Part shown: piece after piece, positions 3,342 to 55,389 of the stretch | Layout of the letters: every line of letters starts with the position of its first letter | Numbering within the stretch: the first letter of the stretch is position 1 | Assembly: GCA_016200915.1 (NCBI GenBank) | Contig: JACQDV010000023.1 | Coordinates: 1-64,000, forward strand | Reading direction: 5' to 3' | Source of the DNA: Sphingobacteriales bacterium | GTDB lineage: Bacteria; Bacteroidota; Bacteroidia; Chitinophagales; Chitinophagaceae | Length of the DNA: 64,000 bases | Position numbers and translations under genes: made by a program | The notes under the pieces: generated by a model | The model's input: the letters and a program-made list of their open reading frames with translations, nothing else | Databases searched by the model: none | What the model was told of the DNA's origin: nothing

Positions 3342-5051
3342 TTAAAGGAAAATAGAAACAATTTCAAAAATGATAGCAGCCAATATACCACTTACGGGGA
3401 TTGTCAATATCCAGGCCCAAAGTAAGTTGGTAGTAACACCCCAGCGAACAGCACTTAAACGTTTAGTGGCCCCTACACCAATGATTGAACCGGAAATAGT
3501 ATGTGTGGTAGAAACAGGTATTCCCATTTGCCCGGTAAAGAATAAAGTAAATGCTCCGGCAGTTTCCGCAGCTACGCCTTCAAGGGGAGTTACTTTAGTG
3601 ATTTTGGTACCCATGGTTTTTACAATCTTCCAGCCGCCACTCATAGTACCCAGGCCAATTGCAAAATAACAGCAAACAGGCACCCATGTTGGTAATTGTC
3701 CAAATTCCTGTATGGTGCCGCTGGCAATTAATGCAGCGCCAATAATACCCATAACTTTTTGAGCATCGCTCCCTCCGTGTCCAACACTAAATGCAGCGGA
3801 ACTGAACAACTGCAGTTTCTTGAACATATTAGCGACATTGTAAGCGGATGGGGTTTTTATTTTTTCAACATAGAGATATACCAGACAGAACATTACCGAG
3901 GTTAAGATAATGCCCCAAACAATAATTGAGTTATCAGCTTTTTCAATATCACCTTCAAATGATTTTACAATGCTGAATTTGCCTATTTTCTTTTTAACCT
4001 TTTCAACATTCTCCGGTTTGATGGGATAAATAGCGTTCATAGCAACAATGGTACTATCTAAGCTTGCTTCTTTTTTGAGATAATGTTTTAAAGGTTCCTT
4101 ATACTTTTCAGTAAGCTCTTTAGCTTTGTCATATTCTTTCTTTGCCTCAGCATCAGCGGGTGCATTTGATTCCAGTACAAGGTAATCGTTTGCATTACGG
4201 ACATCATCTTTCATTTTACTGACTTCAACGTCTTTTAACCAGCCTTCATTGTAAGATTTTTCAGCAATAGCTTTTGATCCCAGTTTATCGTAGTTTTCAA
4301 TTAAAGGTTTTATGTTGTTATAGATCCCTTCGCCCTTTTCTAATTTTTCCTTAGCAGTATTTAGTTTGGCAATAGCTGTACTGTCACCCGGCTTGGCTTT
4401 TGCACCTGCTTCAGCAGTCGCTACGTCTTTTTTGTATTTATCTACTTTTAAAAATTTCTCTAAGTTCTCATGCATTTTGTCGCTTTCAAACTTATCAAAC
4501 ATTAAAACGGTTAAAAAAGTAACAGCAGCAATAATGGCGATTCTTGCCCATACGTTCCGCATAATAGTAACCACGGTAATGAATATAGAAATGATCATAC
4601 CGATCAAAGGAGCGAGGAAGATGAAGAGAATGGTTTTAAGGATGGTATCGCTTTCAACAATCTTGCCCCAGGCAACACCCATACCTTTTAAGTTGATGGC
4701 ATGTGCAATAGCGGCACCGGCAAAACCACCGATCAATGTATGTGATGAAGAAGAGGGGATACCATACCACCATGTAAGCAAGTTCCAGAAAATAGCGGCA
4801 ATTAAACCAGCCAGTATTACCGGAAGTGTAATGAAATCTTTATTTACTGTTTTGCTGATAGAGTTGGCAACAGCATGATCTTTAAAAATCCAGAAGGCAA
4901 CAAAGTTGAAGATGGCTGCCCACAACACTGCCTGGAATGGCGTTAGTACTTTGGTTGATACAACGGTGGCGATAGAGTTGGCTGCATCATGAAATCCATT
5001 AATGTAGTCGAACAATAATGCCAGTATGATGATGATTACAAGTAATGTCAT
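3342..5051 (-). CDS. Pit-family inorganic phosphate transporter with a large internal insert
   Basis: Low-affinity phosphate permease of the inner membrane (PiT/PHO4 family). The N-terminal signature around residues 19-27 (GFHDAANSI) and its C-terminal repeat GHGGSDAQKVMG near residue 420 show the duplicated fold. Between the two halves, residues ~187-374 form a Lys/Glu/Ala-rich hydrophilic stretch with coiled-coil character, about 185 residues that a minimal bacterial Pit lacks. Transmembrane segments flank it on both sides, so it should form one large loop or soluble domain. It lies downstream of DUF47, a common pairing in which the DUF47 protein modulates the transporter. A terminator follows. 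Confidence 0.93.
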   Translation of the reverse strand: MTLLVIIIILALLFDYINGFHDAANSIATVVSTKVLTPFQAVLWAAIFNFVAFWIFKDHAVANSISKTVNKDFITLPVILAGLIAAIFWNLLTWWYGIPSSSSHTLIGGFAGAAIAHAINLKGMGVAWGKIVESDTILKTILFIFLAPLIGMIISIFITVVTIMRNVWARIAIIAAVTFLTVLMFDKFESDKMHENLEKFLKVDKYKKDVATAEAGAKAKPGDSTAIAKLNTAKEKLEKGEGIYNNIKPLIENYDKLGSKAIAEKSYNEGWLKDVEVSKMKDDVRNANDYLVLESNAPADAEAKKEYDKAKELTEKYKEPLKHYLKKEASLDSTIVAMNAIYPIKPENVEKVKKKIGKFSIVKSFEGDIEKADNSIIVWGIILTSVMFCLVYLYVEKIKTPSAYNVANMFKKLQLFSSAAFSVGHGGSDAQKVMGIIGAALIASGTIQEFGQLPTWVPVCCYFAIGLGTMSGGWKIVKTMGTKITKVTPLEGVAAETAGAFTLFFTGQMGIPVSTTHTISGSIIGVGATKRLSAVRWGVTTNLLWAWILTIPVSGILAAIIFEIVSIFL

Positions 5052-5146: not shown

Positions 5147-5794
5147 TTAAGCGTATTTAACGATGATGGATTCAATTACATTCGCCGCATCTTCACACTT
5201 GTCAGTAACAATTTCCAGTACCTGGTAAATCTCTCTTTTCTTTATTACTTCTTTGGCATCTGGTTCAGTAGCGAATAAACGTTCAATACTCATATCAAAA
5301 ATATCATCACCCTGGTTTTCTATACTGTTGATGGCAACTAATGCATCAGTGATCTTGCGCATATTTTTCATATTGCGTAATTCAACTACGGCATTATGTA
5401 CCTGTTCGCAACCTACTGCAATAAGGTCAGCCATTTTTTGAATACCAATATCATTAGGGTTAACACGGTAGAAATTTATTTTCTTCGCTGAAGCTTGTAT
5501 ATAATCAGCAATATCGTCTAATGCTGTAGCGAGGTAGTGAATATCTTCCCTGTCAAAAGGAGTAATAAAGTTTTTACCGAGCTCAGTAAAAATTCTGTGT
5601 GTGTAATCATCGTTCTCATGTTCCATATCCTCAATCTCTTTAATAAGCTTACCTCTTTGTTCAAAATCAGGTTCGTTCACTACTTCTTTCAGTTTTTCTC
5701 CCATCTTTAATAATGTAGAAGCCACATCTTCAAACAACTGGTAAAACACTCTGTCTTTGGGTAAAAAAATTCTTAGAATTGAATTAATAGCCAT
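5147..5794 (-). CDS. DUF47 family (PhoU-like) Pit accessory protein
   Basis: All-helical cytoplasmic protein of 215 aa in the DUF47/PhoU-related family, usually encoded beside Pit and thought to regulate phosphate transport. The PhoU-like acidic, metal-ligand-rich segments EIEDMEHENDDYTH (near 71) and ENQGDDIFD (near 157) are visible. It is the first gene of a two-gene operon with pit (95-bp gap) and is transcribed divergently from a porin gene. The shared 129-bp intergenic region carries an 11-bp-periodic repeat array. Confidence 0.9.
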   Translation of the reverse strand: MAINSILRIFLPKDRVFYQLFEDVASTLLKMGEKLKEVVNEPDFEQRGKLIKEIEDMEHENDDYTHRIFTELGKNFITPFDREDIHYLATALDDIADYIQASAKKINFYRVNPNDIGIQKMADLIAVGCEQVHNAVVELRNMKNMRKITDALVAINSIENQGDDIFDMSIERLFATEPDAKEVIKKREIYQVLEIVTDKCEDAANVIESIIVKYA

Positions 5795-5857
5795 GGCTTA
5801 AAAATTTTGCGCAAAGATTATCTTTTTGAAGAGTATATATGACTGACTTGGAATTGG

Positions 5858-5903
5858 TAATAATTTCTTAACACAGGGGTAATAAAGAAATACTACACCT
5901 TTG
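5858..5903 (+). promoter_or_regulatory. Pho-box-like array and promoter of the first porin
   Basis: Four heptamers in strict 11-bp register: TAATAAT (5858), TAACACA (5869), TAATAAA (5880) and TACTACA (5891), separated by 4-bp spacers. A -7-like CACCTTTG ends at 5903. Direct 7-bp repeats with 4-bp spacers are the classical architecture of OmpR/PhoB-family binding sites. The assignment to PhoB is inference from this geometry and the phosphate-related neighbours. Confidence 0.5.
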
Positions 5904-5923: not shown

Positions 5924-7243
5924 ATGAAAGATCTTCCCCGCAAAGCTTTACTGGCTTTGACTTTGCTGCTTATATCAGCTGCTGCACAATCACAGTTTTT
6001 AATGGATATGATTGATACCTCCAAGGAGACAGGTAAGGGAATGCTGGCATTATACAGAAAATTTGACCGGATTAAGATTGGCGGTTATATACAGCCGGAA
6101 TTTCAGTTTGCTCAATCTAAAGGAGTAAAATCTTTTGAAGGAGGGGATTTTGCTCCGCAAGTAAATAACAGGTTTTTATTACGGCGAAGCAGGGTAAGAA
6201 TAGATTATGTGCATTTTGGTAATGAAGATAAGCCAGGGTTGGGTGTTCAAATAGCCTTTCAGTTTGATGCTAATGAAAGAGGTTTTACGGTGAGAGATGT
6301 ATGGGGCAGGATATTTGAAAACAAATGGAAACTTTTTTCTTTTACTACCGGCATGTTTGCAAGACCATTTGGTTACGAAGTTAACCTCAGCAGCAGTGAC
6401 AGAGAAAGTCCTGAACGGGGACGCATGAGCCAGCTGCATATGAAAAGTGAAAGAGACCTTGGAGCTATGATTAGTTTTGACGTAAGAAAAAAAGATCATT
6501 TACTTAAAAACCTGAAAATAGATGCGGGAATCTTTAATGGGCAGGGGATAGTTGCCAACGGAGAGTTTGATAATACAAAAGATTTTATTGGTCGTGTTTC
6601 AATAAAACCTGTTACTATAAAAAAAGGAGTTCAACTGTCTGCCGGAACCTCCCTGCTGTATGGTGGACTAAATAATAATACCAGGTACGTATTTACCACT
6701 AATGAAGCAGGCGGTGCAAAAAAAATAGAGAAGGATTCATCGATTACCAATGTTGGAAAAATTTCCCCAAGGCGTTACTATGGAGCCGATGTACAATTGA
6801 AAATTAAAAATGGCAGTAACCAGTTTACCGAACTAAGGGGCGAAGTATTAGCAGGCACACAAACTGGTACAGCCAACAGTGCTGAAACTCCCACAGCATT
6901 ATTATCCGGAACCGATGGTTTTTTCCAGCGCAGATTTAACGGAGCTTATTTTTATTTCCTTCAACATTTATTTTCCCGCAAACATCAACTGGTAATAAAG
7001 TACGACTGGTATGATCCCAATACTGAGGTAAAGGGAGATGAAATTGGTACAACTGGCAGCAATTTTACGGCAGCCGATATTAAATACACAACGCTTGGGC
7101 TTGGTTATAATAATTATATCAGTGATAATATTAAACTGACATTATATTATGCCATTGTTTGGAATGAAACCACACAACTGGCTGGTTATACCAATGATAT
7201 TAATGATAATGTGGTGACCTGCAGAGTTCAGTTTCGTTTTTAG
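5924..7243 (+). CDS. OprO/OprP-like phosphate-selective porin
   Basis: Outer membrane beta-barrel of 439 aa, related to the phosphate- or polyphosphate-selective porins. A signal peptide (residues ~1-23, ending AAAQSQ) is followed by KIGGYIQPEFQF, RRSRVRIDY and TGMFARPFGYE, the usual OprP-type barrel opening, and the chain ends on an aromatic (QFRF), as barrels do. It is divergent from DUF47-pit, so phosphate uptake across both membranes is encoded side by side. The leader carries GCTTAAGGAAAA just before the start, also present before the second porin gene at 13716. Confidence 0.85.
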   Translation: MKDLPRKALLALTLLLISAAAQSQFLMDMIDTSKETGKGMLALYRKFDRIKIGGYIQPEFQFAQSKGVKSFEGGDFAPQVNNRFLLRRSRVRIDYVHFGNEDKPGLGVQIAFQFDANERGFTVRDVWGRIFENKWKLFSFTTGMFARPFGYEVNLSSSDRESPERGRMSQLHMKSERDLGAMISFDVRKKDHLLKNLKIDAGIFNGQGIVANGEFDNTKDFIGRVSIKPVTIKKGVQLSAGTSLLYGGLNNNTRYVFTTNEAGGAKKIEKDSSITNVGKISPRRYYGADVQLKIKNGSNQFTELRGEVLAGTQTGTANSAETPTALLSGTDGFFQRRFNGAYFYFLQHLFSRKHQLVIKYDWYDPNTEVKGDEIGTTGSNFTAADIKYTTLGLGYNNYISDNIKLTLYYAIVWNETTQLAGYTNDINDNVVTCRVQFRF

Positions 7244-7813: not shown

Positions 7814-9187
7814 ATGTATTTATTAAAGCGATTATGCTGTATTGCAGCATGTATTGGAATCGGTCAATTGCATGGACAAACTACGCTTACGCTGCATCAA
7901 TCTTTGGAAGCACTGAAACAGTATCATCCGGCTTTACAGGTTAAGCAATCATTGATCAATGCAGCTACAGCCTATATAAAAGAAATTAAAGACCAGCAGC
8001 TTCCTTCCTTTCAATTAATGGAACAGGTTGCTGCAGGAACTGACAACAGTTTGAATGGCTCTTATTTTCCTATGGGCATAGTACCATCTACTTCTGGTGG
8101 AAGAAGGGCAGAAAATATATCGAGTGTTGGTGTTAATAATTTTGTTGTGGGAAATCTGCAATGGGATTTTTACAATTTCGGCGGATACAAAGCAAATGAA
8201 GAATCCGCAGCAGCTGCATTAACTGTTCGGAAATCAGACCTCGATCAACAAACTTATTTTTTGCAGGTAGCTACTACAGCCGCCTATTTCAAAGTGTTGA
8301 AAAATGAGTTCCTGCTCAGGTATAGCATGGATGCATACGATCGGTTAAGCAATATAAAAAATGCGATTCATGCGTATGTGCAGAGCGGATTAAGACCGGG
8401 AGTGGATAGTTCTATTGCCAATGCTGAATTATCCAAGGCAAAGCTGAATATGCTGGATGCAACCAGGCAACTGGCAGCAGCTAAGAATGAATTGTCATTA
8501 TTGACGGGGCTTGATACGAGTATTATTAAAGCAGATACTTCAAATGCAGTACTGATTAATCAATGGCATATATTACAATCTTCTGATTCTATATTGAATC
8601 ATCCTTTACTCAGTTATTATCAATCTGTTTATAAAAATAATCTTGCTTATGAAAAAGTAATACGTAAGAGCAATCTGCCAAAATTATCATTACTCTCCGC
8701 CGCATGGATGCGTGGCTCCAGTATTGATGCAACAGATAAATTTAAGTCAGCCGATAATGCTTTTTCTTATAACCGGTATAACTACATGGCGGGTCTTGCC
8801 TTAACCTACAATTTATTTGAAGGAAAGAAAAGAACAGATAAACTGGTTGTGCAGCAATACCAGACAACTGCAGCATTACAGCAATACGATTTACAGAAAG
8901 ATCAGTTGGAATCAGTAAACAAAGAATCGGATATATATTTATCTGCTTCACTGAATAAACTGAACGAAATTCCTGTTCAGTTAAAAGCAGCTTTGGATGC
9001 ATATACTCAAAAGTTGGCCCTTTATAATTCAGGGCTTGCCAATATCATCGATTTGGTTAATGCCTATTATATTCTTAACCGTGCACAAATTGATGAAGTA
9101 ATGGTTAAGGATGAATACTGGCGGGCTATTTTTCAAAAAGCTTATGCAGCTAATCAGTTCAATCAACTACTATCAATTTTAAAATAA
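7814..9187 (+). CDS. TolC-family outer membrane efflux protein
   Basis: Outer membrane channel of a tripartite pump, 457 aa. Signal peptide ~1-22 (ending LHGQ). Two outer-membrane-factor repeats with long helices follow, recognisable from ALKQYHPALQVKQS near the N-terminus and the C-terminal repeat ending LVNAYYILNRAQIDEV. It is the first of three pump genes, 7 bp from the RND gene, in the order channel-pump-adaptor. Confidence 0.9.
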   Translation: MYLLKRLCCIAACIGIGQLHGQTTLTLHQSLEALKQYHPALQVKQSLINAATAYIKEIKDQQLPSFQLMEQVAAGTDNSLNGSYFPMGIVPSTSGGRRAENISSVGVNNFVVGNLQWDFYNFGGYKANEESAAAALTVRKSDLDQQTYFLQVATTAAYFKVLKNEFLLRYSMDAYDRLSNIKNAIHAYVQSGLRPGVDSSIANAELSKAKLNMLDATRQLAAAKNELSLLTGLDTSIIKADTSNAVLINQWHILQSSDSILNHPLLSYYQSVYKNNLAYEKVIRKSNLPKLSLLSAAWMRGSSIDATDKFKSADNAFSYNRYNYMAGLALTYNLFEGKKRTDKLVVQQYQTTAALQQYDLQKDQLESVNKESDIYLSASLNKLNEIPVQLKAALDAYTQKLALYNSGLANIIDLVNAYYILNRAQIDEVMVKDEYWRAIFQKAYAANQFNQLLSILK

Positions 9188-9194
9188 ATTATTA

Positions 9195-12100
9195 ATGTCT
9201 TTAGTTACATCAGCGTTAAAAAGACCCATTACTGTAATTGTATTAACCATTGGTATGTTGCTGTTTTCGGTAATGTCGGCAGTTAATATCCCCGTTGATA
9301 TTTTTCCCAAACTCAACTTGCCAACCATCTATGTGATAGAACCGTTTGGTGGCATGTCGGCTCAGCAGATGGAAGGTTTCTTCTCCACCCGTTTGCAGGA
9401 TCAGTTTTTATATGTAAACGGAGTTAAAAATATTTCCAGTAAAAACATACAGGAACTCACCCTTTTAAAACTCACTTTTTATGAAAATACTAATATGGCT
9501 GAAGCCTCGGCACAAGTGGCGTTACAGGTGAACAGGGCAATGAAGTTTTTCCCGCCGGGTGCATTACCACCGCAGGTAGTACGTTTTGATGCTTCTTCTT
9601 TGCCTGTGGGCGAATTAGTGTTCAGCAGCCCCAATAAAAGTTTGAAAGAGATATATGACTTAGCCACTACCCGCATACGACCCATGTTTGCAACGGTACC
9701 GGGCTTATCGGCACCGCCGCCTTTTGGAGCCAACTCAAGATCAGTAGTAGTAAATGTAGATCCGGATAAATTACGCAGCTACAATCTTACGCCTGACCAG
9801 GTGGTGGATGCCATTGCCAAAAATAATGTAATGGCTCCTTCCGGTAACCTGCGTATTAATAACACCATGTATTTAACCACCATCAATTCATTGGAAAAAA
9901 GGGTGCAGGAGTTTGAAGATATTCCTATTGTAACAAGCGGCAACGCTGCAGTTTTTATTCATGATGTTGGTAAAGTATCAGATGGTGCTGATGTTACAGT
10001 TGATTATGCTTTGGTAAATGGTAAACGTTCTGTTTATATACCGGTAGTAAAAACGGCTGATGCTTCCACCTGGGATGTGGTAAAGAATCTGAAAGCCAAA
10101 TTACCGGAGATGCAAAGTTTATTGCCGGATGATGTACTGGTAAAATACGAGTTTGATCAATCGGTATTTGTGATCAATGCTGTAAAAAGCTTAGTTACAG
10201 AGGCAGCATTAGGTGCCCTGCTTACCGGATTAATGGTGTTGCTTTTTCTTCGTGACCTGCGAAGCAGCCTGATCGTTGTAATTACTATTCCTGTTTCTGT
10301 TATCAGTTCGGTTTTGTTTTTGAGTCTGGCAGGTCAAACGATTAATATCATGACCTTAAGTGGGCTTGCTTTAGCAATCGGTATTTTAGTTGACCAGGCC
10401 ACCGTTACCATTGAAAACATACATCAGCATTTGGAAATGGCGAAGAATAAAAGACAAGCCATCTTTGATGCCTGTACTGAAATTGCTTTTCCCTTATTGC
10501 TTATCCTGCTTTGTATTCTGGCCGTATTCGCCCCATCCTTTGTAATGAATGGTATTCCTAAAGCAATGTTTCTGCCACTGTCATTAGCAATCGGTTTTGC
10601 TATGATCATTTCTTTTTTTGCTGCTCAAACATTAGTGCCCATACTGAGTAACTGGATGCTGAAAGAAGAACGGTATAAATACAAACATGGTTCACCACAT
10701 GCACATGCAGGGCTGGCGTTAGATGATAAAGAAGTAAAAGAAATCAATAAACATTTGGCTGCAGAAATAAAAGAGCCGCAGAAGAATGATTTTTTTGAAC
10801 GGTTCAAAATGAGTTATCTCAAACAGCTGAATGTGCTGATGAAGAGAAAATGGATGATCAGCGCTGTTTATTTTCTGCTGGTACTGGCAATAGCAGGAGT
10901 AAGTTTTGTTTTTATTGGAAAAGACCTGATGCCAAAAGTGAATGCCGGTCAGTTTCAATTGCGTATTAAAGAGCCGGATGGCACACGATTAGAACGAACA
11001 GAAGAAAAAGTACACCAGGTGCTTGGTCTTATTGACAGTGCGGTAGATGGTAACGTGGAGATCAGTTCTGCTTATGCAGGATTAATTCCCAGCAGTTACG
11101 GAACCAGTAACCTGTACATATTTAACAGCGGTACACATGAAGCTGTTTTGCAGGTAAAGCTGGATGAAAAATATAAAACAGATATAGATCAGCTAAAAGA
11201 TAAACTAAGGGAACTCATCAGTAATAAGTTCCCCGAAATGCATATATCATTTGAGCCTATTGATCTTACTGAAAAAATAATGAGCCAGGGAGCATCTACT
11301 CCAATAGAAGTAAGAGTGGCCGGTAAGGATATGAAGCAGATTGAAAAATATGCAGATGATGTTGTTTCAAAATTAAAAGCCATTTCTTTTTTAAGAGATG
11401 TTCAAATAGCGCAACCATTAAAATATCCTGTCATCAATATTACATTGGATCGTTTTAAAACTGCACAAATGGGATTGGATGTATATCAGGTTGCCCGTTC
11501 GGTTACTGATGCTACTTCATCCAGCAGGTTTACAGAAAAAAATCAATGGTTAGATGAAAATGCCGCTTACACTTACCAGGTACAGGTACAGGTGCCGGAG
11601 TATATGATGAATGAAGTAAGTGATCTGAAAGAAATACCAATAGTAAAAGGACAGCCAAGACCGGTACTTTCTGATGTAGCAAACTTTTCTATTGATACAT
11701 TACCGGCTGAATATGACCGTGCCGGACCGAGAAGATTTGTTACCGTTAGTGCCAATATTTATAAAAAAGATTTAGCAGCAGCAACTGATGCTGTACAAAA
11801 AGCAGTAAAGAGTTTGGGCCAACCACCCAAAGGAATGGTGGCAGAACTAAAAGGTACTTCCAGTTTACTGGTAGAAACATTAGGCAGTTTACAAAATGGG
11901 TTATTGGTAGCTATCATCGTAATCTTTTTATTACTCGCTGCTAATTATCAGTCATTCAAATTATCTTTTGTGGTGTTAACAACAGTACCGGCAGTTATTG
12001 TTGGTTCGTTGTTGATGTTGTTTCTAACAGGATCTACATTAAATCTCCAATCCTATATGGGCATGATCATGTCAACCGGTGTATCTGTTGCCAATGCTAT

Positions 12101-12416
12101 TTTGATAGTAACCAATGCTGAACGATTACGATTGGAATATAAAGATGCTACGAGAGCGGCAGTGGTAAGTGCATCCGTTCGGTTACGTCCTATATTAATG
12201 ACCAGTATGGCAATGATTGCCGGTATGATTCCAATGGCTACAGGCTTAGGTGAGGCAGGAGATCAAACAGCACCATTAGGAAGAGCTGTAATTGGCGGAT
12301 TGTTCTTTTCAACTTTTGCAGCATTACTGGTGCTTCCACTTGTGTACAGCATTGTTCAGCGAAAAGAAAAATTCGATTCCCCTTCTTTATTACCCGAAAC
12401 AATAAAATCAATTTGA
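9195..12416 (+). CDS. RND efflux pump, inner membrane subunit
   Basis: Proton-driven resistance-nodulation-division exporter of the AcrB/HAE-like superfamily (1073 aa). It begins ALKRPITVIVLTIG (TM1) and shows two halves, each with a large periplasmic loop. In TM4 the sequence is ILVDQATVTIEN near residues 397-408: the proton-relay Asp400 is kept, but the second Asp of the AcrB pair is Gln401, while the Glu of the heavy-metal type (Glu407) is present. The substrate therefore cannot be assigned; drug, lipid or metal are all possible. A cytoplasmic-side linker near residue 500 contains HGSPHAHAG, a His cluster. Confidence 0.9.
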   Translation: MSLVTSALKRPITVIVLTIGMLLFSVMSAVNIPVDIFPKLNLPTIYVIEPFGGMSAQQMEGFFSTRLQDQFLYVNGVKNISSKNIQELTLLKLTFYENTNMAEASAQVALQVNRAMKFFPPGALPPQVVRFDASSLPVGELVFSSPNKSLKEIYDLATTRIRPMFATVPGLSAPPPFGANSRSVVVNVDPDKLRSYNLTPDQVVDAIAKNNVMAPSGNLRINNTMYLTTINSLEKRVQEFEDIPIVTSGNAAVFIHDVGKVSDGADVTVDYALVNGKRSVYIPVVKTADASTWDVVKNLKAKLPEMQSLLPDDVLVKYEFDQSVFVINAVKSLVTEAALGALLTGLMVLLFLRDLRSSLIVVITIPVSVISSVLFLSLAGQTINIMTLSGLALAIGILVDQATVTIENIHQHLEMAKNKRQAIFDACTEIAFPLLLILLCILAVFAPSFVMNGIPKAMFLPLSLAIGFAMIISFFAAQTLVPILSNWMLKEERYKYKHGSPHAHAGLALDDKEVKEINKHLAAEIKEPQKNDFFERFKMSYLKQLNVLMKRKWMISAVYFLLVLAIAGVSFVFIGKDLMPKVNAGQFQLRIKEPDGTRLERTEEKVHQVLGLIDSAVDGNVEISSAYAGLIPSSYGTSNLYIFNSGTHEAVLQVKLDEKYKTDIDQLKDKLRELISNKFPEMHISFEPIDLTEKIMSQGASTPIEVRVAGKDMKQIEKYADDVVSKLKAISFLRDVQIAQPLKYPVINITLDRFKTAQMGLDVYQVARSVTDATSSSRFTEKNQWLDENAAYTYQVQVQVPEYMMNEVSDLKEIPIVKGQPRPVLSDVANFSIDTLPAEYDRAGPRRFVTVSANIYKKDLAAATDAVQKAVKSLGQPPKGMVAELKGTSSLLVETLGSLQNGLLVAIIVIFLLLAANYQSFKLSFVVLTTVPAVIVGSLLMLFLTGSTLNLQSYMGMIMSTGVSVANAILIVTNAERLRLEYKDATRAAVVSASVRLRPILMTSMAMIAGMIPMATGLGEAGDQTAPLGRAVIGGLFFSTFAALLVLPLVYSIVQRKEKFDSPSLLPETIKSI

Positions 12417-12420
12417 TAAA

Positions 12421-13512
12421 ATGATATTTATGAAACATATACTTATTCTTCTTTCATTCATTACTTTTTTTTATGCCTGTAATGAATCTGCAGCCGGCAA
12501 AAAAAAGGCAACTAAAACATCACCAAAGGAAAAGTTTTCTTTTTCTAACGTAATTAAAGGGTCATTGTCAGCCACACTGGCATTGCCCGGACAATTACAA
12601 CCATTTGAAATAGTACAGTTATATCCCAAAGTAAATGGCTTTGTAAAAAATGTATTAGTTGACAGGGGCACTGTAGTGAAAAAAGGGCAAGTGCTGTTGC
12701 AATTAGAAGCACCGGAAATACAGGAACAATATCTCGCTGCAAAGTCAAAAGCACAACAGGCAATGTCAATGTACTTTGCCAGTAAAGATAATTATGAAAG
12801 ATTATTAAGCACCAGCAAAACTCCGGGAACAGTTTCGCTACACGACCTGCAAATGGCGCAATCAAAAATGATGGCCGACAGTGCAGTTGCTGAAGCAGAA
12901 AAATCAACAGCCAATTCATTAAAAGCCACACAGGATTATTTAGTGGTAAGAGCTCCTTTTGATGGAGTGATTACAGAACGCAATGTTCATCCCGGTGCAT
13001 TGGTTGGGCCTAATATAAAAACAGATGATAAGCCAATGCTGGTACTGCAACAGGAAGCTAAACTACGGCTGGTGATTGAAGTGCCTGAAGTTTATACCAG
13101 CCAGTTAGCAGGCAAATCAACATTTAGTTTTTCTGTTAATTCATTACCCGGAAAACTTTTCCGGGGAACGTTGAGCCGTTCATCCGGTGCATTGAGTACA
13201 AAGCTCAGATCAGAAACTGCGGAGATTGATGTATTCAATGCTCAGCATCTTTTAAAGCCCGGCATGTACGCACAGGTATTACTTCCATTAAGTGGTAATG
13301 CAGAAGCATTGATTGTACCGCATGCTTCCATTGTAACTTCTACCGAAAGAAAATATGTGATTATGATTAAAGATGGTAAAACAAAATGGATAGATATTGC
13401 TGAAGGAAACATCCGCAACGACTCTGCCGAGATTTTTGGAAATCTTAAAGAAGGAGATGTAGTGCTTTCAAAAGCAACAGATGAGATAAAAGAAGGGGTG
13501 GATGTTAAATAA
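12421..13512 (+). CDS. RND periplasmic adaptor (membrane fusion) lipoprotein
   Basis: Links the RND pump to TolC. 363 aa with a lipoprotein signal ending in the lipobox FFYAC, giving Cys20 from this start or Cys17 if the second ATG at 12430 is used. The lipoyl/barrel-sandwich halves are VNGFVKNVLVDRGTVVKKGQ and LVVRAPFDGVITERNVHPGA, flanking a helical hairpin. The gene starts 4 bp after the RND stop, so it is in the same operon. It is the last pump gene, an order reversed from the common adaptor-pump-channel arrangement. Confidence 0.9.
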   Translation: MIFMKHILILLSFITFFYACNESAAGKKKATKTSPKEKFSFSNVIKGSLSATLALPGQLQPFEIVQLYPKVNGFVKNVLVDRGTVVKKGQVLLQLEAPEIQEQYLAAKSKAQQAMSMYFASKDNYERLLSTSKTPGTVSLHDLQMAQSKMMADSAVAEAEKSTANSLKATQDYLVVRAPFDGVITERNVHPGALVGPNIKTDDKPMLVLQQEAKLRLVIEVPEVYTSQLAGKSTFSFSVNSLPGKLFRGTLSRSSGALSTKLRSETAEIDVFNAQHLLKPGMYAQVLLPLSGNAEALIVPHASIVTSTERKYVIMIKDGKTKWIDIAEGNIRNDSAEIFGNLKEGDVVLSKATDEIKEGVDVK

Positions 13513-13645: not shown

Positions 13646-13688
13646 AATAAATAGTTGACTCTGTAATTAGAAGAGTCAACTATTTATT
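13646..13688 (+). terminator. Long perfect hairpin between the RND operon and the second porin
   Basis: AATAAATAGTTGACTCT (13646-13662), 9-nt loop, then its exact 17-base complement (13672-13688). Outside it AAGGAATAA and TTATTCCTT extend the pairing around a bulge. It lies 133 bp after the adaptor stop and 27 bp before the porin start, with no long T-run. It may end the pump mRNA or act as a leader structure for the porin. Confidence 0.6.
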
Positions 13689-13715: not shown

Positions 13716-15014
13716 ATGAACAATTCACTTCGCACAACCATACTGGTTGCTGCTACCTTGCTTGTAACGCAAAATTGCATCGCTCAGTTGATATTTAATT
13801 CCGACTCTGTTTACAGAACGGGCACCCCTAATTCAGGGCGAATATGGGGATATGCCTTTGGAGATTTCTATTACAAAAGTCATAGTGACTCATTCAGCAG
13901 AGGTAATGCTAATCAATACAGTGGCATTCCCAAAAACAGATCAGCCTTTCAGATAAGGAGGGTTTATATTGGGTATGATTATAATATTACAAAGAAATTT
14001 TCTGCAGAATTATTATTGGCTGCAGAAGATAATCTTCCTGCGGGCACACCACCGGGTTCCACCACGCCCAGCGGTGATTTGTTAGCAGATAATAAATTAA
14101 GCTTCTTTGTAAAATTGATTAACCTTCGATGGAAACAAATTTGGAAAGGAACGGATCTGGTGTTGGGACAAGTGGCTACTCCATCTTTTGTTACGCTTAC
14201 CGAAAAAGTATGGAGCTATCGTTCAATTGAACGAACGCTGATTGATATCCGTCGTACGCCATCGTATGATTTAGGTGTTGCATTGCAGGGTTTTTTTGAT
14301 CCGCTGAAAAAATATTACGGCTACAATCTTATGATAGGTAATGGCAGTACAGCCCGGCCGGAGAATGATGCATTCAAGTGGTTTTACGGCGATGTGTATG
14401 CATACTTGTTGAAAAAGAAAATGGTAGTTGATCTATATGCCGATTATGAAAGACTCAACTGGAGTACATTGTGGCATCATTCAAGACAAATGATTAAAGG
14501 GTTTATTGGCTATAACAGCATTGCTACCGAAGCAAAAGGAATGGATGCATCTAAAGGGTTTAGTGCCGGCGTTGAGTTTTTTGTCAATCATTTACAAAAA
14601 GATATTTTTGCTTCCAAAATAGCAGGCGGTGCCGATACCTTAAGTTCAAATGCCAGTGGGATTTCTTTATATGTTCACGGCGATATTATCAAAAGCAAGT
14701 TAAGGTATTTTGCAAGATTTGATGAATATAAACCCTTTGGTAAAACCCACAACGAACTGTACATAAAATATATTGGGAATACCAGTAACTATAATGATAA
14801 TTCTTTTGTTGGATCAACAGCAACAGGTGATGAAACATATACACAGCAGTTCGTAACTGCGGGAGTTGATTACATACCGGCAAAGAATATTCATTTCATT
14901 CCTAACTTTTGGTATAATCATTACTCCTCAAGAGCGGCAAATGCAACCAACCGGCAAGCTGGTGACTATGACCTCGTGTTTCGCATTACCTTTCATTACA
15001 TATTTGGGAAATAG
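13716..15014 (+). CDS. Outer membrane porin-like beta-barrel, second copy
   Basis: 432-aa secreted protein with a signal peptide (~1-23, ending NCIAQ) and alternating beta-strands ending RITFHYIFGK, consistent with a barrel. RSAFQIRRVYIGYDYNITKKF and LVLGQVATPSF are like OprO/P-type porins, though similarity to the copy at 5924 is modest. Its position between the efflux operon and the TonB receptor, and a leader motif shared with the first porin, suggest co-regulation. The substrate is not known. Confidence 0.75.
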   Translation: MNNSLRTTILVAATLLVTQNCIAQLIFNSDSVYRTGTPNSGRIWGYAFGDFYYKSHSDSFSRGNANQYSGIPKNRSAFQIRRVYIGYDYNITKKFSAELLLAAEDNLPAGTPPGSTTPSGDLLADNKLSFFVKLINLRWKQIWKGTDLVLGQVATPSFVTLTEKVWSYRSIERTLIDIRRTPSYDLGVALQGFFDPLKKYYGYNLMIGNGSTARPENDAFKWFYGDVYAYLLKKKMVVDLYADYERLNWSTLWHHSRQMIKGFIGYNSIATEAKGMDASKGFSAGVEFFVNHLQKDIFASKIAGGADTLSSNASGISLYVHGDIIKSKLRYFARFDEYKPFGKTHNELYIKYIGNTSNYNDNSFVGSTATGDETYTQQFVTAGVDYIPAKNIHFIPNFWYNHYSSRAANATNRQAGDYDLVFRITFHYIFGK

Positions 15015-15048
15015 CTGTTTGTCAACACACTTTTTCCGTCAATTCTGG

Positions 15049-15125
15049 TAACATTAAGTTAACATTAAAGAAACAATTCCTTCATTTCGCCGTAACATTA
15101 CCGCAACATTATCATAGTTCCTTTG
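15049..15125 (+). promoter_or_regulatory. Pho-box-like array upstream of the TonB receptor
   Basis: AACATTA occurs exactly at 15050, 15061, 15094 and 15105, and AACAATT lies at 15072, all on one 11-bp grid. A CCTTTG -7-like element ends at 15125, 17 bp before the ATG. The 7-bp repeat with 4-bp spacer is the architecture of PhoB-type boxes; the array ends where a -33 element would lie, consistent with activation by a bound regulator. The regulator identity is inference. Confidence 0.6.
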
Positions 15126-15141: not shown

Positions 15142-18100
15142 ATGAAAAACTTTACTGCTAAAGGAACGTTGAACTTAATTCTTACATTTTTTTTCCTTGT
15201 TATTTCAGTTGGATTAAAAGCCCAGGAAACTACTGCTACATTGAGCGGAAATATCACCGATGAAAAGGGGCAATTTGTTATTGGCGCTTCAATTGTTGCT
15301 AAGTATGAACCAACCGGAAACACCGTACAAACTGTGAGTAACAAAAAAGGAATTTTTGTTATTACTAATCTTAAACCCGGTGGCCCTTACACTATTCGCA
15401 TTACTTATATCGGTTATAAAGAAGAAGTTTTAGAAAACATAAGTTTGAGTTTGGGTAATAACCCTGATGTAAACCTTGCTTTAAAACAAGATTCAAAACA
15501 ACTACAGGAAGTGGTAATTACCGGTAAAAAACTTCCTTCAACCGGCGGCACTAATATTGGTCGTGCACAATTAGCAACTTTACCTACATTGGGAAGAAGC
15601 ATTCAGGATTTCACCAGGTTAACTCCTCAGTCAAATAATAACTCCTTTGCAGGAACCAACTTCCGTTACAACAACTTTACGTTGGATGGTGCAGTTAATA
15701 ATGATGCAATTGGTTTTAGTAACTCTGCCGGTGGTGTTAGCGGTGGCGGCCAATCAGGAACAGCCGGTGCCGGTACACGTACTAATCCATATAGCTTAGA
15801 AGCGATACAGGAAGTACAGGTGCAACTAACTCCCTTTGATGTTAAGATCGGAAACTTTACCGGTGGTAGTGTGAATGCGGTAACTAAAAGCGGAAGCAAT
15901 ACGGTTCACGGTTCATTATATACTTATGGCCGTAACCAGGTGTTAACCGGAAAAAGTGTTGATGGAAAAAAATCATCTATCGGATCTGATTACTACGATT
16001 ACCAGGCAGGTGGAAGTTTGAGCGGTCCTATCATTAAGAATAAATTATTCTACTTTGTAAATGCTGAATTAACCCGCCGCCAGGAACCTACTTTCTATAA
16101 TGCAGGTGATCCTGGGTCTGCTATTACACTAAAAGAAGCACAGGACATCTCCAATTACCTGCAAACAAAATATGGATATGATGTGGGTTCTTATGGTGCT
16201 TATAAAATATTTACCAACAGTAATAAATTCTTTGGCAGACTTGATTGGAACGTATCTAATAAAAGTACATTAATGCTGCGAGGCATTTATACAGACGGAA
16301 GCGGTAATAACTTAGAACGTTCTTCTACCAACTTTCAGTTTTCTTCAGTTGACTTTACACAGCACACTAAAAACCTGAACCTGGTTGCTGAGTACAAAAC
16401 CCGTTTCAGTAATTTCCTCAACAATAATTTAATTGTAAGTTATATCAATGTACATGAGTACAGGGATTTCCCCGGCACATTGGCTCCGTTCATTGATATT
16501 GATAACGGAAGAATATGGGCCGGTACCTGGAGAGAGGCTTCTATCTATAACATGAAGCAGAAAACAATCGAGGTTAGTGATAACCTTACTTATACAAAAG
16601 GTATTCATAAAATAACTGTGGGTACACATAATGAATTTTATAACCTGAGCTATGGTTTTATCAACTCATGGAACGGCCGTTGGGAATATTCACGTGGTAT
16701 AAACAGTTTTCTTGCTGATAACCCAAGCCGTGTAAGAGGTGCATTTACATTAGATGGTAAAACACCTAACAACAGGGATTATTTATACAACAACCCACCT
16801 AATCCATTTAAAGTTGCTTTGTTAAGTGCCTATGCACAGGATGAAATTGCCGTTTCAAGAAATTTTAAAGTAACTCCAGGATTACGTGTTGATTATTCTG
16901 CTGTTGCTGATCAGCCAACGCTGGATCCTGCAGTGAACACTACTAAAGATTATGTATCTCCTAACCCAACTTATACACATACTCCTTTCAGCGAGTTAAA
17001 TAATAAATGGTTAGGTAAAGCTACTTTATCTCCACGTTTAGGATTTAACTATGATATCAATAGCAACCAGTCAGTGGTATTACGTGGTGGTACGGGAATA
17101 TTTACAGGACGTATGCCGTTTGCCTGGTTAGGTTATGCTTATACATTAAATGGAACAACTTATGGAAATATTGACTGGAACAGCATCGCTGCCGGTACTA
17201 CCGTTCCGTTAGCCATTAACCCGCTGGGATTAAAAGATACAGTAACTAAATACGGTGGTGCTTCCCGCAGTAATACAAGAGAAGTGGACTTAATTGATAA
17301 CAATTTCAAACTACCACGCATCTGGAGATCAAATCTGGCTTTGGATGTTAAGTTTGGAAACGGATATAAGATGACGTTTGATGCGTTATATACAAAAACA
17401 TTGTATGATGTGAAGTTTGAGCAGATAAACCTGAAAGATTCTGTTGCTTACTTCCCCACCGGACAGGCGGCCTCTGCCACACCAGTTTATGTGGGAGGAA
17501 AACTGAACAGCGTATTCTCTAATGCATTCTTCTTAACCAACACAACTGAAGGTTACCGTTATAACTTAACCTTCCAGATATCTAAAGTAACCAATAACAT
17601 TAAGGCGGGTTCACATTTACTGAACATTAACTGGAGTGCGGCTTATACTTATGGTATGAGTAAAGATATCAGCAATGGTATCCGTAACTCTTTCCAGAGT
17701 AACTATGAAGTGAACCCAAGCATTGTTCCTTCTAATTCTACATTATCTTATTCAAACTTTGATCTGCGTCATCGCATTGTGGGAATGTTTGGTACCAGTA
17801 TGATGTGGAATAAAAAGAACACTACCTCCTGGTCATTCTTCTACTCCGGACAGTCCGGTAGCCCGTACTCTTTGGTTTATCAATCAGCTCCGTTTGGTAA
17901 TGGTTCTAATGCTCCGTTACCTTATATACCAGTTAAGTTCTTAAACTTTACTGATATTAAAGATGCAGGTGGTAATGTTACTTACAGTGCAGCGCAGCAG
18001 ATAAATGATATGAATGCCTTTATTGATGGTGATAAATATCTGCGTACAAGAAGAGGCCAGTATGCTGAAAGAAATGGTTTACGTACACCATGGAATCATC

Positions 18101-18417
18101 AACTGGATATGAAATTAGTGCATGAGTTTAAGATGAAGAACAGTAATCATTCACTGCGCATCAGCTTAGATATCTTTAATGTGCTGAACTTACTGAACAA
18201 TGACTGGGGACATATCAACTTTGTCACCAACATCAACAACTACACAGTTAACTTCTTAAAGTTTGTTAAAGATGCCAATGGTAAAAATCCCGGTGCTCCT
18301 TCAACAGGATATACACCAACTTTCAACTTTGTAAAACCACTGGATGGACATTATTATACAGTTGATCCTATCAACTCACGTTGGCAGGGACAATTAGGAA
18401 TTCACTATACATTCTAA
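15142..18417 (+). CDS. TonB-dependent receptor with carboxypeptidase-regulatory N-domain (Oar-like)
   Basis: Large outer membrane receptor of 1091 aa. Signal peptide ~1-28 (ending LKAQ), then a CarboxypepD-regulatory-like domain (~30-120: ATLSGNITDEKGQFVIGASI), a plug domain (LQEVVITGKKLPSTGG to about 250), and a long beta-barrel ending in GIHYTF. Oar-like receptors of this type in Bacteroidota import or sense diverse nutrients. There is no SusD partner, so it is not a typical polysaccharide locus. The 11-bp-periodic array upstream and the neighbouring phosphate genes suggest phosphate-limited expression and possibly uptake of a phosphorylated compound; that is inference. Confidence 0.9.
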   Translation: MKNFTAKGTLNLILTFFFLVISVGLKAQETTATLSGNITDEKGQFVIGASIVAKYEPTGNTVQTVSNKKGIFVITNLKPGGPYTIRITYIGYKEEVLENISLSLGNNPDVNLALKQDSKQLQEVVITGKKLPSTGGTNIGRAQLATLPTLGRSIQDFTRLTPQSNNNSFAGTNFRYNNFTLDGAVNNDAIGFSNSAGGVSGGGQSGTAGAGTRTNPYSLEAIQEVQVQLTPFDVKIGNFTGGSVNAVTKSGSNTVHGSLYTYGRNQVLTGKSVDGKKSSIGSDYYDYQAGGSLSGPIIKNKLFYFVNAELTRRQEPTFYNAGDPGSAITLKEAQDISNYLQTKYGYDVGSYGAYKIFTNSNKFFGRLDWNVSNKSTLMLRGIYTDGSGNNLERSSTNFQFSSVDFTQHTKNLNLVAEYKTRFSNFLNNNLIVSYINVHEYRDFPGTLAPFIDIDNGRIWAGTWREASIYNMKQKTIEVSDNLTYTKGIHKITVGTHNEFYNLSYGFINSWNGRWEYSRGINSFLADNPSRVRGAFTLDGKTPNNRDYLYNNPPNPFKVALLSAYAQDEIAVSRNFKVTPGLRVDYSAVADQPTLDPAVNTTKDYVSPNPTYTHTPFSELNNKWLGKATLSPRLGFNYDINSNQSVVLRGGTGIFTGRMPFAWLGYAYTLNGTTYGNIDWNSIAAGTTVPLAINPLGLKDTVTKYGGASRSNTREVDLIDNNFKLPRIWRSNLALDVKFGNGYKMTFDALYTKTLYDVKFEQINLKDSVAYFPTGQAASATPVYVGGKLNSVFSNAFFLTNTTEGYRYNLTFQISKVTNNIKAGSHLLNINWSAAYTYGMSKDISNGIRNSFQSNYEVNPSIVPSNSTLSYSNFDLRHRIVGMFGTSMMWNKKNTTSWSFFYSGQSGSPYSLVYQSAPFGNGSNAPLPYIPVKFLNFTDIKDAGGNVTYSAAQQINDMNAFIDGDKYLRTRRGQYAERNGLRTPWNHQLDMKLVHEFKMKNSNHSLRISLDIFNVLNLLNNDWGHINFVTNINNYTVNFLKFVKDANGKNPGAPSTGYTPTFNFVKPLDGHYYTVDPINSRWQGQLGIHYTF

Positions 18418-18632: not shown

Positions 18633-19532
18633 TTGGAATCAGCTGTAAAAAATAACAATAAAAAAACCGCCGCACCAATTCTAAGGTTGGCAAAACCAAA
18701 GAAATTAATTGCATTTGGCTGGTACGGTGGTAAGTTTTCACACCTTGATTGGCTTTTGCCCTTATTACCTGATTGTTTACATTATTGTGAGCCCTTTGCC
18801 GGTTCAGGAGCAGTATTATTAAACAGAGAGCCTTCACCTGTTGAGACATATAACGATATTGATGGAGAAGTAGTAAATTTTTTTAAGGTATTAAGAGGAG
18901 AAAAAGATAAGCTCATTGAACAAATTGCATTGACACCATTTTCAAGAGAGGAATTTGCAATCGCTTGTGAATTAGACCCCGATTTATCACAAGTAGAAAG
19001 AGCAAGACGTTTTTATATAAGAGCAAGACAAGTTAGAACAGGTCTTGCCCAAACAGCATCAATTGGAAGATGGGCTAATTGTAAAAATACAAGCCGTTCT
19101 GGAATGAGTGGTGTTGTTAGCCGTTGGTTAGGCGGCGTTGAGCAGCTTGACTTTATTGCTGAAAGACTTTTACGAGTGCAAATTGAGAATAGACCAGCGA
19201 TTGATATAATTAAATTATACGACAGTAAAGAAACATTATTTTACTGTGACCCACCTTACATTCACGAAACTAGGGGAGACACAAAAGCCTATGGTTTTGA
19301 AATGAATGATAATCATCATCGGGAATTAGCAAAGACTTTAAACTCCATCGAGGGATTGGCAGCGATTTCGAACTATGAATGTGAATTAATGGAAGAACTA
19401 TATCCATCAAAAAAATGGAAAAAAGTTTTTAGCCCTGAAAAAACAATACATTCAACAAAAGATACGAGGCAGGAAGTGCTTTGGATTAATTACGATTTAC
19501 AAAAAGTATCAAAGATTTATTCCCTTTTTTAA
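18633..19532 (+). CDS. D12-class N6-adenine DNA methyltransferase
   Basis: Protective methylase of a type II restriction-modification pair (299 aa). Motif X is FGWYGGK (28-34), the SAM-binding motif I CEPFAGSGAV (52-61), YNDIDGEVVNFF follows, and the catalytic DPPY is at residues 206-209, all in the order of the DpnM/D12 class. It starts with TTG; no in-frame ATG precedes the motifs. The endonuclease gene begins at the next base after its stop. The recognition site cannot be read from sequence; D12 enzymes often, but not always, target GATC-like sites. Confidence 0.9.
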   Translation: MESAVKNNNKKTAAPILRLAKPKKLIAFGWYGGKFSHLDWLLPLLPDCLHYCEPFAGSGAVLLNREPSPVETYNDIDGEVVNFFKVLRGEKDKLIEQIALTPFSREEFAIACELDPDLSQVERARRFYIRARQVRTGLAQTASIGRWANCKNTSRSGMSGVVSRWLGGVEQLDFIAERLLRVQIENRPAIDIIKLYDSKETLFYCDPPYIHETRGDTKAYGFEMNDNHHRELAKTLNSIEGLAAISNYECELMEELYPSKKWKKVFSPEKTIHSTKDTRQEVLWINYDLQKVSKIYSLF

Positions 19533-20663
19533 ATGAGCAAAACATCACCTGCCGAAATTTTAGAAAAACACTATCAACTTGCACTAAAAAACATTGGGAG
19601 CAGTTCAATAAAATCTGACGACTTAAGAAAGCGGATAGAGTTTATTTGTCGCTGTAACGCAAACAAAGCACCCATCCGTTTCCTAATGTCATGCTTACTT
19701 GCAAAAATTGACGACCCAAAAGTTGATATAAGAAAACCATACACTGAAATTGACGGAAAGAATACTTTCTCTGGTAGGTTCTACGATGAACGTTATGTTG
19801 AGGCAATGGTTCACAAATACAAGTTACCCTGCAATCCGACAACAGCTTATTTAACACCTGCATTCAGAAATCTTGACCGAGTTCTTACAACAGACCTTGC
19901 ACTTGTTGGCAGACCAAGAGAAGTATATGAATACGCTTTAAAAATTCTTGACACTGTCCATCGTAAAAAAGAAACCCCACAAAACTTATTGCAAGAAATA
20001 ATCCGCTTTTTACTTATCATAAAGGCAGAGGACGAAAACCCTATGCAACAACTTCTTGCAGACTTAAAACAGGCTGATGATGTTTTACCTCTTTCCTCTG
20101 AAGAAATAGTTACGCTACTAATACAACACCTTAGTTCTACAAATTCCAGCCGGCTTCCTGTTTTAATCGTAGCTGCTGCGTATGAAGCGGTAAATGTAAA
20201 GTTAGGAGAAGTTGGTTTGCCACTTCAAGCCCATAACGCTGCTGACAAACAAACTGGCTCAATTGGCGATGTTGAAATTACACTTGCTAACGATGATAAA
20301 ATTGTTACTTGTTATGAAATGAAAGATAAACGAGTAACCAAAAATGATATTGATGTAGCAGTTCAAAAAATATCAAAAGCTAAAAACAAACTGGACAATT
20401 ACATTTTCATCACAACAGACATAATTGAGCCAGATGTTTCAGAATATGCAAAAAGCCTTTATGACAAAACAGGTGTTGAGTTTGCTATACTTGATTGCAT
20501 TGGTTTTATCAGGCACTACTTACACTTTTTTCATAGACACAGAAACTTGTTCTTAAATGCATATCAGGCGTTGGTTTTGGCAGAACCGACAAGTTCGATT
20601 TCTCAACCATTGAAAGAAGTTCTTCTTGTTTTAAGACGAGCAGCAGAAGCAGACAAAAGATAA
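19533..20663 (+). CDS. Restriction endonuclease, SacI family
   Basis: 376-aa nuclease partner of the methylase directly upstream (stop and start abut). The N-terminal region with DIRKPYTEIDGKNTFSGR and YDERYVE, followed by NPTTAYLTPAFRN and GRPREVYEYAL, is what I associate with the SacI-type endonuclease family. A PD-(D/E)xK core is visible as GDVEIT (Asp246) and YEMKDK (Glu262-x-Lys264). SacI itself cuts GAGCTC, but that specificity should not be assumed: the partner here is an adenine methylase of the D12 class. Family assignment is from memory of motifs. Confidence 0.75.
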   Translation: MSKTSPAEILEKHYQLALKNIGSSSIKSDDLRKRIEFICRCNANKAPIRFLMSCLLAKIDDPKVDIRKPYTEIDGKNTFSGRFYDERYVEAMVHKYKLPCNPTTAYLTPAFRNLDRVLTTDLALVGRPREVYEYALKILDTVHRKKETPQNLLQEIIRFLLIIKAEDENPMQQLLADLKQADDVLPLSSEEIVTLLIQHLSSTNSSRLPVLIVAAAYEAVNVKLGEVGLPLQAHNAADKQTGSIGDVEITLANDDKIVTCYEMKDKRVTKNDIDVAVQKISKAKNKLDNYIFITTDIIEPDVSEYAKSLYDKTGVEFAILDCIGFIRHYLHFFHRHRNLFLNAYQALVLAEPTSSISQPLKEVLLVLRRAAEADKR

Positions 20664-54690: not shown

Positions 54691-55389
54691 TTATTCAGGA
54701 ACCACCAGCCTGAAACCATTACCGTGAATATTCACAATTTCAATGGTACCATCTTCTTTCAAATATTTACGCAGTTTGGCAATGTACACATCCATACTTC
54801 TTCCGTTAAAATAAGTATCGCTGCCCCAAATGCGTTTTAGTGCCTGTTCTCTTGGCAACAAATCATTTTTAAATTCGGCCAGCATCTTCAGCAATTCATT
54901 CTCTTTGGGAGAAAGCGTTTGTGTTTTACCATCAACCGTTAATTCTCTCAGTTTGGGATTGAAATGATATTTGCCCAGATCAAATTCAATTGTTTCGCTG
55001 GCTCTGTTCATTTCCTCGTTACGTTTGAGTATGGCTTTTATCTTCAGTAACAATACTTCGCTGTCAAATGGCTTGGTGATGTAATCATCCGCACCGAGTT
55101 TGTAACCACTGATGATATCTTCCTTCATCGTTTTTGCAGAAAGAAAGAATAAAGGAATATCAGGATCTACATCACGAATTTCTTCGCCCAATGTAAATCC
55201 GTCCATGTTGGGCATCATTACATCGAGCAGGCACAGCTCAAACTTTTCACGGCGAAAAGCTGCGAGGCCAAGTATGCCGTCTCTTTCGAGTGTTACATCA
55301 TAATCGTTTAGCTCAAGATAATTCTTCAAAACCATGCCTAAGTTTTGGTCATCTTCTACCAATAATATTTTGGGTTTAGTTCCTTCCAT
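54691..55389 (-). CDS. OmpR/PhoB-family response regulator (RprY-like)
   Basis: 232 aa. Receiver domain with ILLVEDDQNLG, phospho-acceptor Asp in LCLLDVMMPNMDG (near 57) and KPFDSEVLLLK; C-terminal winged helix with LSPKENELLKML and YIAKLRKYLKEDGTIEIVNIHGNGFRL. Closest in style to RprY of Bacteroides. No kinase gene is adjacent. Members of this family bind 11-bp-spaced direct repeats like those near 5.9, 7.3 and 15.1 kb, but there is no evidence that this one does. Confidence 0.9.
   Translation of the reverse strand: MEGTKPKILLVEDDQNLGMVLKNYLELNDYDVTLERDGILGLAAFRREKFELCLLDVMMPNMDGFTLGEEIRDVDPDIPLFFLSAKTMKEDIISGYKLGADDYITKPFDSEVLLLKIKAILKRNEEMNRASETIEFDLGKYHFNPKLRELTVDGKTQTLSPKENELLKMLAEFKNDLLPREQALKRIWGSDTYFNGRSMDVYIAKLRKYLKEDGTIEIVNIHGNGFRLVVPE

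Follow-up and report, generated by a model that had tools for sequence, protein, structure and literature searches.

A probable multi-unit Pho box upstream of a TonB-dependent receptor gene in Chitinophagaceae

The window analyzed here, 64,000 nucleotides of contig JACQDV010000023.1 from a Chitinophagaceae genome (assembly GCA_016200915.1), encodes an Oar-like TonB-dependent receptor of 1091 aa on the forward strand at 15142..18417, the putative controlled gene of this study. The receptor is assigned to PF25183, PF13620, and PF13715, and its matches to PF25183 and to PF13620, a carboxypeptidase-regulatory-like N-terminal domain, were both over cut-off, while no match to the PF07715 plug was found. 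An AlphaFold model built with 17 homologues (pLDDT 65, pTM 0.62) was poor in the plug region and contained long stretches with a pLDDT below 50 after the N-terminal domain; this model, of moderate confidence, matched the TonB-dependent receptors FusA, PfeA, SusC, and RagA. Directly upstream lies a porin-like gene on the same strand (13716..15014), here called porin_A. Directly behind the receptor, the genes for a D12-class adenine methyltransferase (PF02086) and then a restriction endonuclease of the SacI-like type (PF09566) occupy 18633-20663.

A second array (GGTAATAATTTCTTAACACAGGGGTAATA; 5856..5884, forward strand) lies further upstream in the window, between a divergent DUF47-Pit gene pair and a second porin-like gene, porin_B (5924..7243, forward strand). 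The pair comprises a PhoU_div (DUF47) gene (5147..5794, reverse strand; PF01865) and, beside it, a Pit phosphate permease (3342..5051, reverse strand), which is the genome's only PF01384 match. The region separating porin_B and Pit from the porin_A-receptor pair (7814-13512) encodes OEP, an AcrB-type RND pump, and membrane-fusion proteins, and an inverted repeat (AATAGTTGACTC ... GAGTCAACTATT), seen by eye in the gap between these efflux genes and porin_A (13650-13684), is perhaps a terminator. The first-pass annotation had placed the receptor next to porin and Pit genes. Its adjacency to a porin-like gene holds; Pit, however, is 10 kb away behind the efflux cluster, although the DUF47-Pit pair does border the 5856 array. 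Neither of the window's two porin-like genes had a match to PF07396 or to any other Pfam family. A low-confidence fold model of porin_B (pLDDT 54) resembled general porins, with OprP at rank 37 and OprO at rank 45, and profile comparison with PDB sequences returned nothing meaningful on the identity of the porins.

The array that concerns us occupies the 127-bp gap between the end of porin_A at 15014 and the start of the receptor gene at 15142. The AACATTA heptamers reported at 15050, 15061, 15094, and 15105, and AACAATT at 15072, were all confirmed, and their offsets of 11, 11, 22, and 11 bp place them on a single 11-bp grid (15050-15111). Read as TAACATT-type cores on the forward strand, they span 15049 to 15110 in six successive slots of 11 bp; slot 4 is degenerate, giving five units in six slots. 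Units 1 (15049..15055, its 11-mer starting at 15047), 2 (15060..15066), and 5 (15093..15099) all read TAACATT, with unit scores of 14.1, 12.4, and 13.7, respectively. Unit 3 (15071..15077, AAACAAT) is weak with a score of 2.5, slot 4 (15082..15088, TCATTTC) scores -6.3, and the promoter-nearest unit 6 (15104..15110, CAACATT) scores 3.5. The array's direct repeats, about 7 bp each, recur with an 11-bp period, the form that characterizes a Pho box.

Single AACATTA heptamers are not rare: the window contains 31, where 22.7 would be expected. However, 200 dinucleotide shuffles of the window never produced three of them on one 11-bp grid within six slots, and the exact arrangement AACATTA-N4-AACATTA has only two matches in the 4.5-Mb genome, both inside the array. 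When up to two mismatches were allowed, this pair gave 158 matches compared to 176 in the reversed control, and because it showed no genome-wide enrichment at this tolerance, the pair was rejected as too weak to predict sites on its own. A looser three-unit pattern, run on the same genome with three mismatches, was likewise uninformative (5 matches and 5 in the reversed control), and only the receptor and 5856 sites were convincing. With a scoring matrix trained without the window and without its nearest relative, the top three-unit site in the 64 kb was 15047 (29.0) and the next independent site was 5856 (22.9), compared to a best score of 20.1 over 60 shuffled windows. At the two-unit criterion, porin_A in the window had no array of its own.

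We then analyzed the DNA upstream of orthologous receptors. The search for related loci yielded 68, of which 56 with upstream DNA and a receptor identity of 61-92% were used together with the window. The 12 loci left out were L037, L053, and L078, which had no usable upstream DNA, and L090-L094 and L096-L099, which belong to other families with 35-38% identity and, all but L090, were viewed separately. In the 57 receptor upstreams (11.4 kb), the forward strand contained TAACA 191 times and the reverse strand 34 times, against a background of 2362 occurrences in 1.67 Mb on both strands. Pairs of TAACA were separated by 11 bp in 59 cases, by 22 bp in 41, and by 33 bp in 21, compared to one pair at 10 bp and two at 12 bp. 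The unit derived from these upstreams is GGTAACATTNN, in which some G and C positions are conserved. The array is kept before orthologous receptors across Chitinophagaceae: at least two units were present in 46 of the 56 upstreams evaluated and three units in 38, while 10 had fewer than two. Among the other upstreams of the same loci, two units were found in 27 of 598 and three in 8 of 598; one case in each of these counts is a mis-assigned L046 receptor. The receptor upstreams evaluated were 56 of the 57. Nineteen of the remaining 26 precede genes of a phosphate-type set (porin_B, 5; other TonB-receptor genes, 5; PhoB-like regulator, 4; PlcP-like, 3; PAP2, 2), and seven precede other genes. 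A two-unit box was also seen at a small gene just 3' of the receptor in four loci (L046:7240, L047:11396, L048:11363, and L068:11390), and the two of these genes that were scanned carry a GNAT acetyltransferase domain.

The comparison with the nearest relative (L057, whose receptor is 92% identical) separates cores from spacers. In the printed alignment the five good cores showed 0 differences in 35 bases, whereas 4 of 7 bases differed in the degenerate slot and 9 of 20 in the spacers, so that slot 4 is the only core to have changed. A comparison with L102 was out of register by one base and was left out. The suggestion that the number of sites is unusual was not borne out: at least five in-phase units were present in 9 of the 57 orthologous upstreams, the window included, and the array is thus at the upper end in length but not exceptional. 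Outside the family, two Flavobacteriaceae homologues had four TTAA cores sharing one 11-bp phase (reached in 0 of 1000 shuffles for either sequence), a core picked after viewing these two sequences, and no array was found before six Saprospiraceae receptor homologues, some of which have uncertain start codons.

From the receptor upstreams we built a degenerate three-unit pattern and searched 98 genomes of the family with it. The pattern gave 23 matches with one mismatch, compared to 0 for the reversed pattern, and 76 compared to 4 with two mismatches. After matches that overlapped or lay within about 60 bp of each other had been merged, the 76 corresponded to 63 sites, the window's own and 62 others, which were fetched; their first downstream genes were assigned by BLAST to reference proteins, L301 and L302 being two sites at one gene. 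Genes of the Pho type lay behind 44 of the 62 sites. Because the pattern was derived from the upstreams of the window's receptor family, sites before that family are not independent evidence; without them, the proportion was 33 of 51. The first gene belonged to a second TonB-receptor family at 20 sites, at 17 of which a lipoprotein gene followed, and to the window's receptor family at 11. It was porin_A at seven sites, in six of which PstS came next, and the window's porin_A is 46-52% identical to the first genes of these seven loci. Further first genes were a lipoprotein (2 sites), porin_B (1), PhoB followed by PhoR (1, L300), and PAP2 (1, a weak assignment at 27% identity), and at the L322 site a different porin with PF07396 was accompanied by a PBP-like protein, PstB, and PhoU. 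Thus, matches to the motif concentrate at phosphate-type genes. The remaining 18 sites lacked such a gene: 11 lay before other genes, and at 7, including three at contig ends, the next 350 bp contained no reading frame. These 18 exceed the roughly 4 chance sites expected from the reversed control.

A complete pst-phoU operon was that of L314, in which the array is followed by porin_A, PstS, PstC, PstA, PstB, and PhoU. All five Pst/PhoU genes of this operon passed their NCBIfam cut-offs (PstS by TIGR00975), and PstB and PhoU were likewise confirmed in L288 and L322. TIGR02136 was dropped as a marker of PstS, as it was over cut-off in only 1 of 60 genomes. Among the porins of these operons, the L314 porin_A homologue scored 17.3 bits for PF07396 (cut-off 20.9) and the L322 porin 40.0 bits. 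The commonest array-led operon in the family consists of a TonB receptor of about 930-950 aa and then a lipoprotein-like protein of about 380-540 aa; in such operons of the L289-L347 set (e.g. L308, L330, and L335), the two lipoprotein-like proteins that were scanned had no Pfam match over cut-off. In another genome (G007), two genes for proteins of about 2300 aa (L297 and L298) are array-led but have no TTTG at the 18-bp distance, and the protein of L297 carries Ig-like Big_2 domains.

PlcP, which phosphate depletion induces in F. johnsoniae, had been picked in advance as a test gene. As PlcP-like we counted genes that encode a phosphoesterase of the calcineurin-like type (PF00149, PF12850) and adjoin a glycosyltransferase gene (PF13528), so that the name rests on domain and neighbor, and analyzed the best 30 loci from 60 genomes for these genes and likewise for phoB; of the plcP-like loci, L237 was dropped for its short length. 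The three-unit score exceeded 95% of the shuffle null in 25 of the 29 plcP-like upstreams and 99% in 20 of them, compared to 4 of 29 above the 95% level on the reverse strand. In the genome of the window, the plcP-like gene has an array of its own (L142:5025), a one-mismatch match of the AACATTA pair with more units on the same grid. For the best 30 phoB-orthologue upstreams, no clear array was detected, with 11 of 30 above the 95% null compared to 9 of 30 on the reverse strand, and these counts lend no support to autoregulation of phoB as a general rule. Matches were seen at individual phoB genes, namely that of L300 from the pattern search and, with two units, those in four loci. In the window's genome, a three-unit site (15.7) was also seen just behind the phoR-like gene and before a small reading frame (L142:950-982).

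The receptor itself also neighbors such genes. In the Ferruginibacter-type loci L042, L052, L073, and L095, phoBR-type and plcP-like genes lie within 10 kb of the receptor, which has behind it the glycosyltransferase, the PlcP-like gene, a histidine kinase, and the PhoB-like regulator. Over the 56 loci, many of which are incomplete, the neighbors counted were a glycosyltransferase in 12, a PlcP-like gene in 11, PhoR in 9, PhoB in 8, DUF47 in 8, and porin_B in 5.

The position of the array relative to the promoter was conserved as well. Downstream of the last unit, a TTTG at 15122..15125 on the forward strand, 18 bp after the start of that unit, is the probable core of the -7 element; here we assume that Bacteroidota promoters have a -7 element of the form TAnnTTTG. 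A distance of 18 bp between the start of the last unit and TTTG variants was the commonest, occurring in 24 of 53 receptor upstreams. At the fetched sites, a TTTG or TTTC at 18 bp was present in 28 of the 44 of Pho type, compared to 1 of the 18 others and 0.8% of shuffled tails. At the 5856 site the distance deviates, being 20 bp from the last good unit. PHO boxes of E. coli replace the -35 region and stand before a sigma-70 -10 box, whereas the array described here precedes a TTTG element. Given the position of the array and this promoter layout, activation by PhoB is the natural reading.

To relate the array to a regulator, we considered the six OmpR-type regulators of the genome, two of which were scanned against the PhoB model TIGR02154 (cut-off 296.2). 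The regulator on contig C33 had TIGR02154 as its best match, with 232.5 bits and thus under the cut-off, and is the candidate PhoB; the OmpR-type regulator inside the window reached 143.3 bits, also under the cut-off. The candidate kinase matched PnpS best and then PhoR, both under cut-off. This candidate PhoB/PhoR pair lies at about 40.8-42.6 kb of C33, and the receptor is on a different contig. The window's regulator (54691-55389) is RprY-like, with 289 bits against a cut-off of 370. No match to PstC was found in this genome, while all control genomes were positive, and its one PF12849 protein scored 51.2 bits compared to the TIGR02136 cut-off of 206.6.

One of the closest known counterparts of the array is the PHO box of E. 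coli, made up of 11-nt direct repeats with seven conserved and four less conserved bases, which PhoB binds head to tail and which is present in multiple copies at some promoters (PMC4415409). The two differ in their cores, CTGTCAT in E. coli and GGTAACATT here, and in the up to five to six in-phase units that here stand before a receptor gene. Among the matches listed from the open-licence PMC literature, we found no sequence-defined Pho box for these Bacteroidota. The nearest published motif among them is that of Riemerella anatipestifer PhoP from DAP-seq, in which TTTAACA are the most conserved bases (PMC9603813). That regulator is up-regulated in phosphate starvation, the promoter of a TonB receptor was among its EMSA targets, and its 583 peaks included 50 candidate targets that were differentially expressed; the motif is termed ArcA-like, and the passages that present it describe no 11-bp array, direct repeat, or phosphate regulon (PMC9603813). 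In Bacteroides fragilis, PhoB binds the pst promoter by EMSA, and the text on this binding gives no binding sequence (PMC3547664). In marine heterotrophs, plcP frequently shares an operon with a glycosyltransferase gene and Pho boxes are predicted upstream of it, and PlcP homologues also occur in Bacteroidetes (PMC4796936); the main-text passages on these boxes contain no Bacteroidota consensus.

Phosphate depletion in F. johnsoniae induces PlcP (log2 8.59), PhoB, lipoproteins, several TonB transporters, and the glycosyltransferase of the phoBR cluster (PMC8115612). OprP of that cluster (log2 -1.3) and PhoR showed no significant induction, and the cluster's glycosyltransferase is pf04101 whereas the one here is PF13528 (PMC8115612). 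Among the induced genes is an orphan TonB transporter with pf13620, Fjoh_3841 (log2 7.69; PMC8115612), which resembles the window's receptor in its PF13620 domain and TonB class, the two features on which we compare them. By analogy, the lipoprotein-like proteins of the L289-L347 operons may be counterparts of the phosphate-induced lipoproteins of F. johnsoniae. Promoter, motif, and Pho box are each mentioned zero times in the consulted portions of that study (PMC8115612).

In the respects that computation can address, namely the unit and its period, the distance to the promoter, conservation, and the genes it precedes, the array qualifies as a Pho box array. Period, spacing, conservation, and targets largely support the proposal of the first-pass annotation that the 7-bp repeat with a 4-bp spacer is a PhoB-type operator, here in its Bacteroidota form. 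Equal frequency of the motif before unrelated genes, or its absence upstream of the orthologous receptor, had been named in advance as outcomes that would speak against this proposal, and neither was observed. Judged from the sequence, it is very probable that the regulator responding to phosphate shortage docks at the array, with PhoB as the putative binder and its binding presumably activating. When phosphate is short, a PhoR-type kinase would phosphorylate a PhoB-type response regulator, for which the pair on C33 is the candidate. PhoB would then cover 15049 to 15110, its molecules arranged head to tail along one face of the DNA with one per 11-bp GGTAACATTNN unit. The unit nearest the promoter ends about one turn upstream of the TTTG of the putative -7 element, at the usual place of the -33 element, and bound PhoB would recruit RNA polymerase and so switch on the TonB receptor. 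We consider it highly likely that the array is a multi-unit Pho box through which PhoB would switch on this gene. The receptor, in turn, would import a phosphorus-containing compound or otherwise serve in phosphate starvation.

Three other explanations were weighed. The array could be the operator of another OmpR-family regulator, for instance an RprY-like one or one for envelope stress, that controls outer-membrane proteins generally, with phosphate genes as only part of its targets. The predominance of outer-membrane proteins among array-led genes fits such a regulator, as do the presence of six OmpR-type regulators in the genome, one of them RprY-like and inside the window, and the finding that the array is not the rule upstream of phoB. 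However, it would then be hard to account for arrays at a complete pst-phoU operon and at two more operons with PstB and PhoU, at plcP-like genes, and at a phoB-phoR operon (L300), or for a receptor that repeatedly adjoins phoBR and plcP-like genes, and we regard this explanation as unlikely. Much less probable still is a structural promoter feature, such as phased A/T tracts or a UP-like element, that would raise basal transcription without being an operator. Phasing at 11 bp with A/T-rich cores would presumably bend DNA too, but the core favors one strand (191 to 34) and has a specific sequence in which G and C positions are conserved, and it is the spacers that vary while the cores do not. 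Finally, an origin of the array by chance or by slippage of repeats in A/T-rich intergenic DNA, for which only the commonness of AACATTA by itself could speak, can practically be dismissed given the absence of three-on-grid arrangements from all 200 shuffles and the conservation of the array across genera despite diverged spacers.

The reading of the array as a multi-unit Pho box bears on how the family acquires phosphorus. Tentatively, and with more doubt than confidence, the phosphate regulon of Chitinophagaceae could consist mainly of energized outer-membrane import, with array-led promoters driving TonB receptors that a surface lipoprotein may or may not accompany, and in genomes that have Pit only, such as the present one with its lack of a PstC match, these receptors might be the high-affinity step of phosphate or organophosphorus uptake. 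More generally, GGTAACATTNN every 11 bp, with the last unit most often starting 18 bp before TTTG, is a readable operator code by which phosphate would control genes in a large set of Bacteroidota. Known phosphate genes of relatives carry this code too, which ties the importer of the window to phosphorus supply. The code also marks several outer-membrane receptors without a known ligand as phosphorus-related, and therefore narrows the search for their ligands. Altogether, the operator code makes a candidate phosphate regulon readable from genomes.
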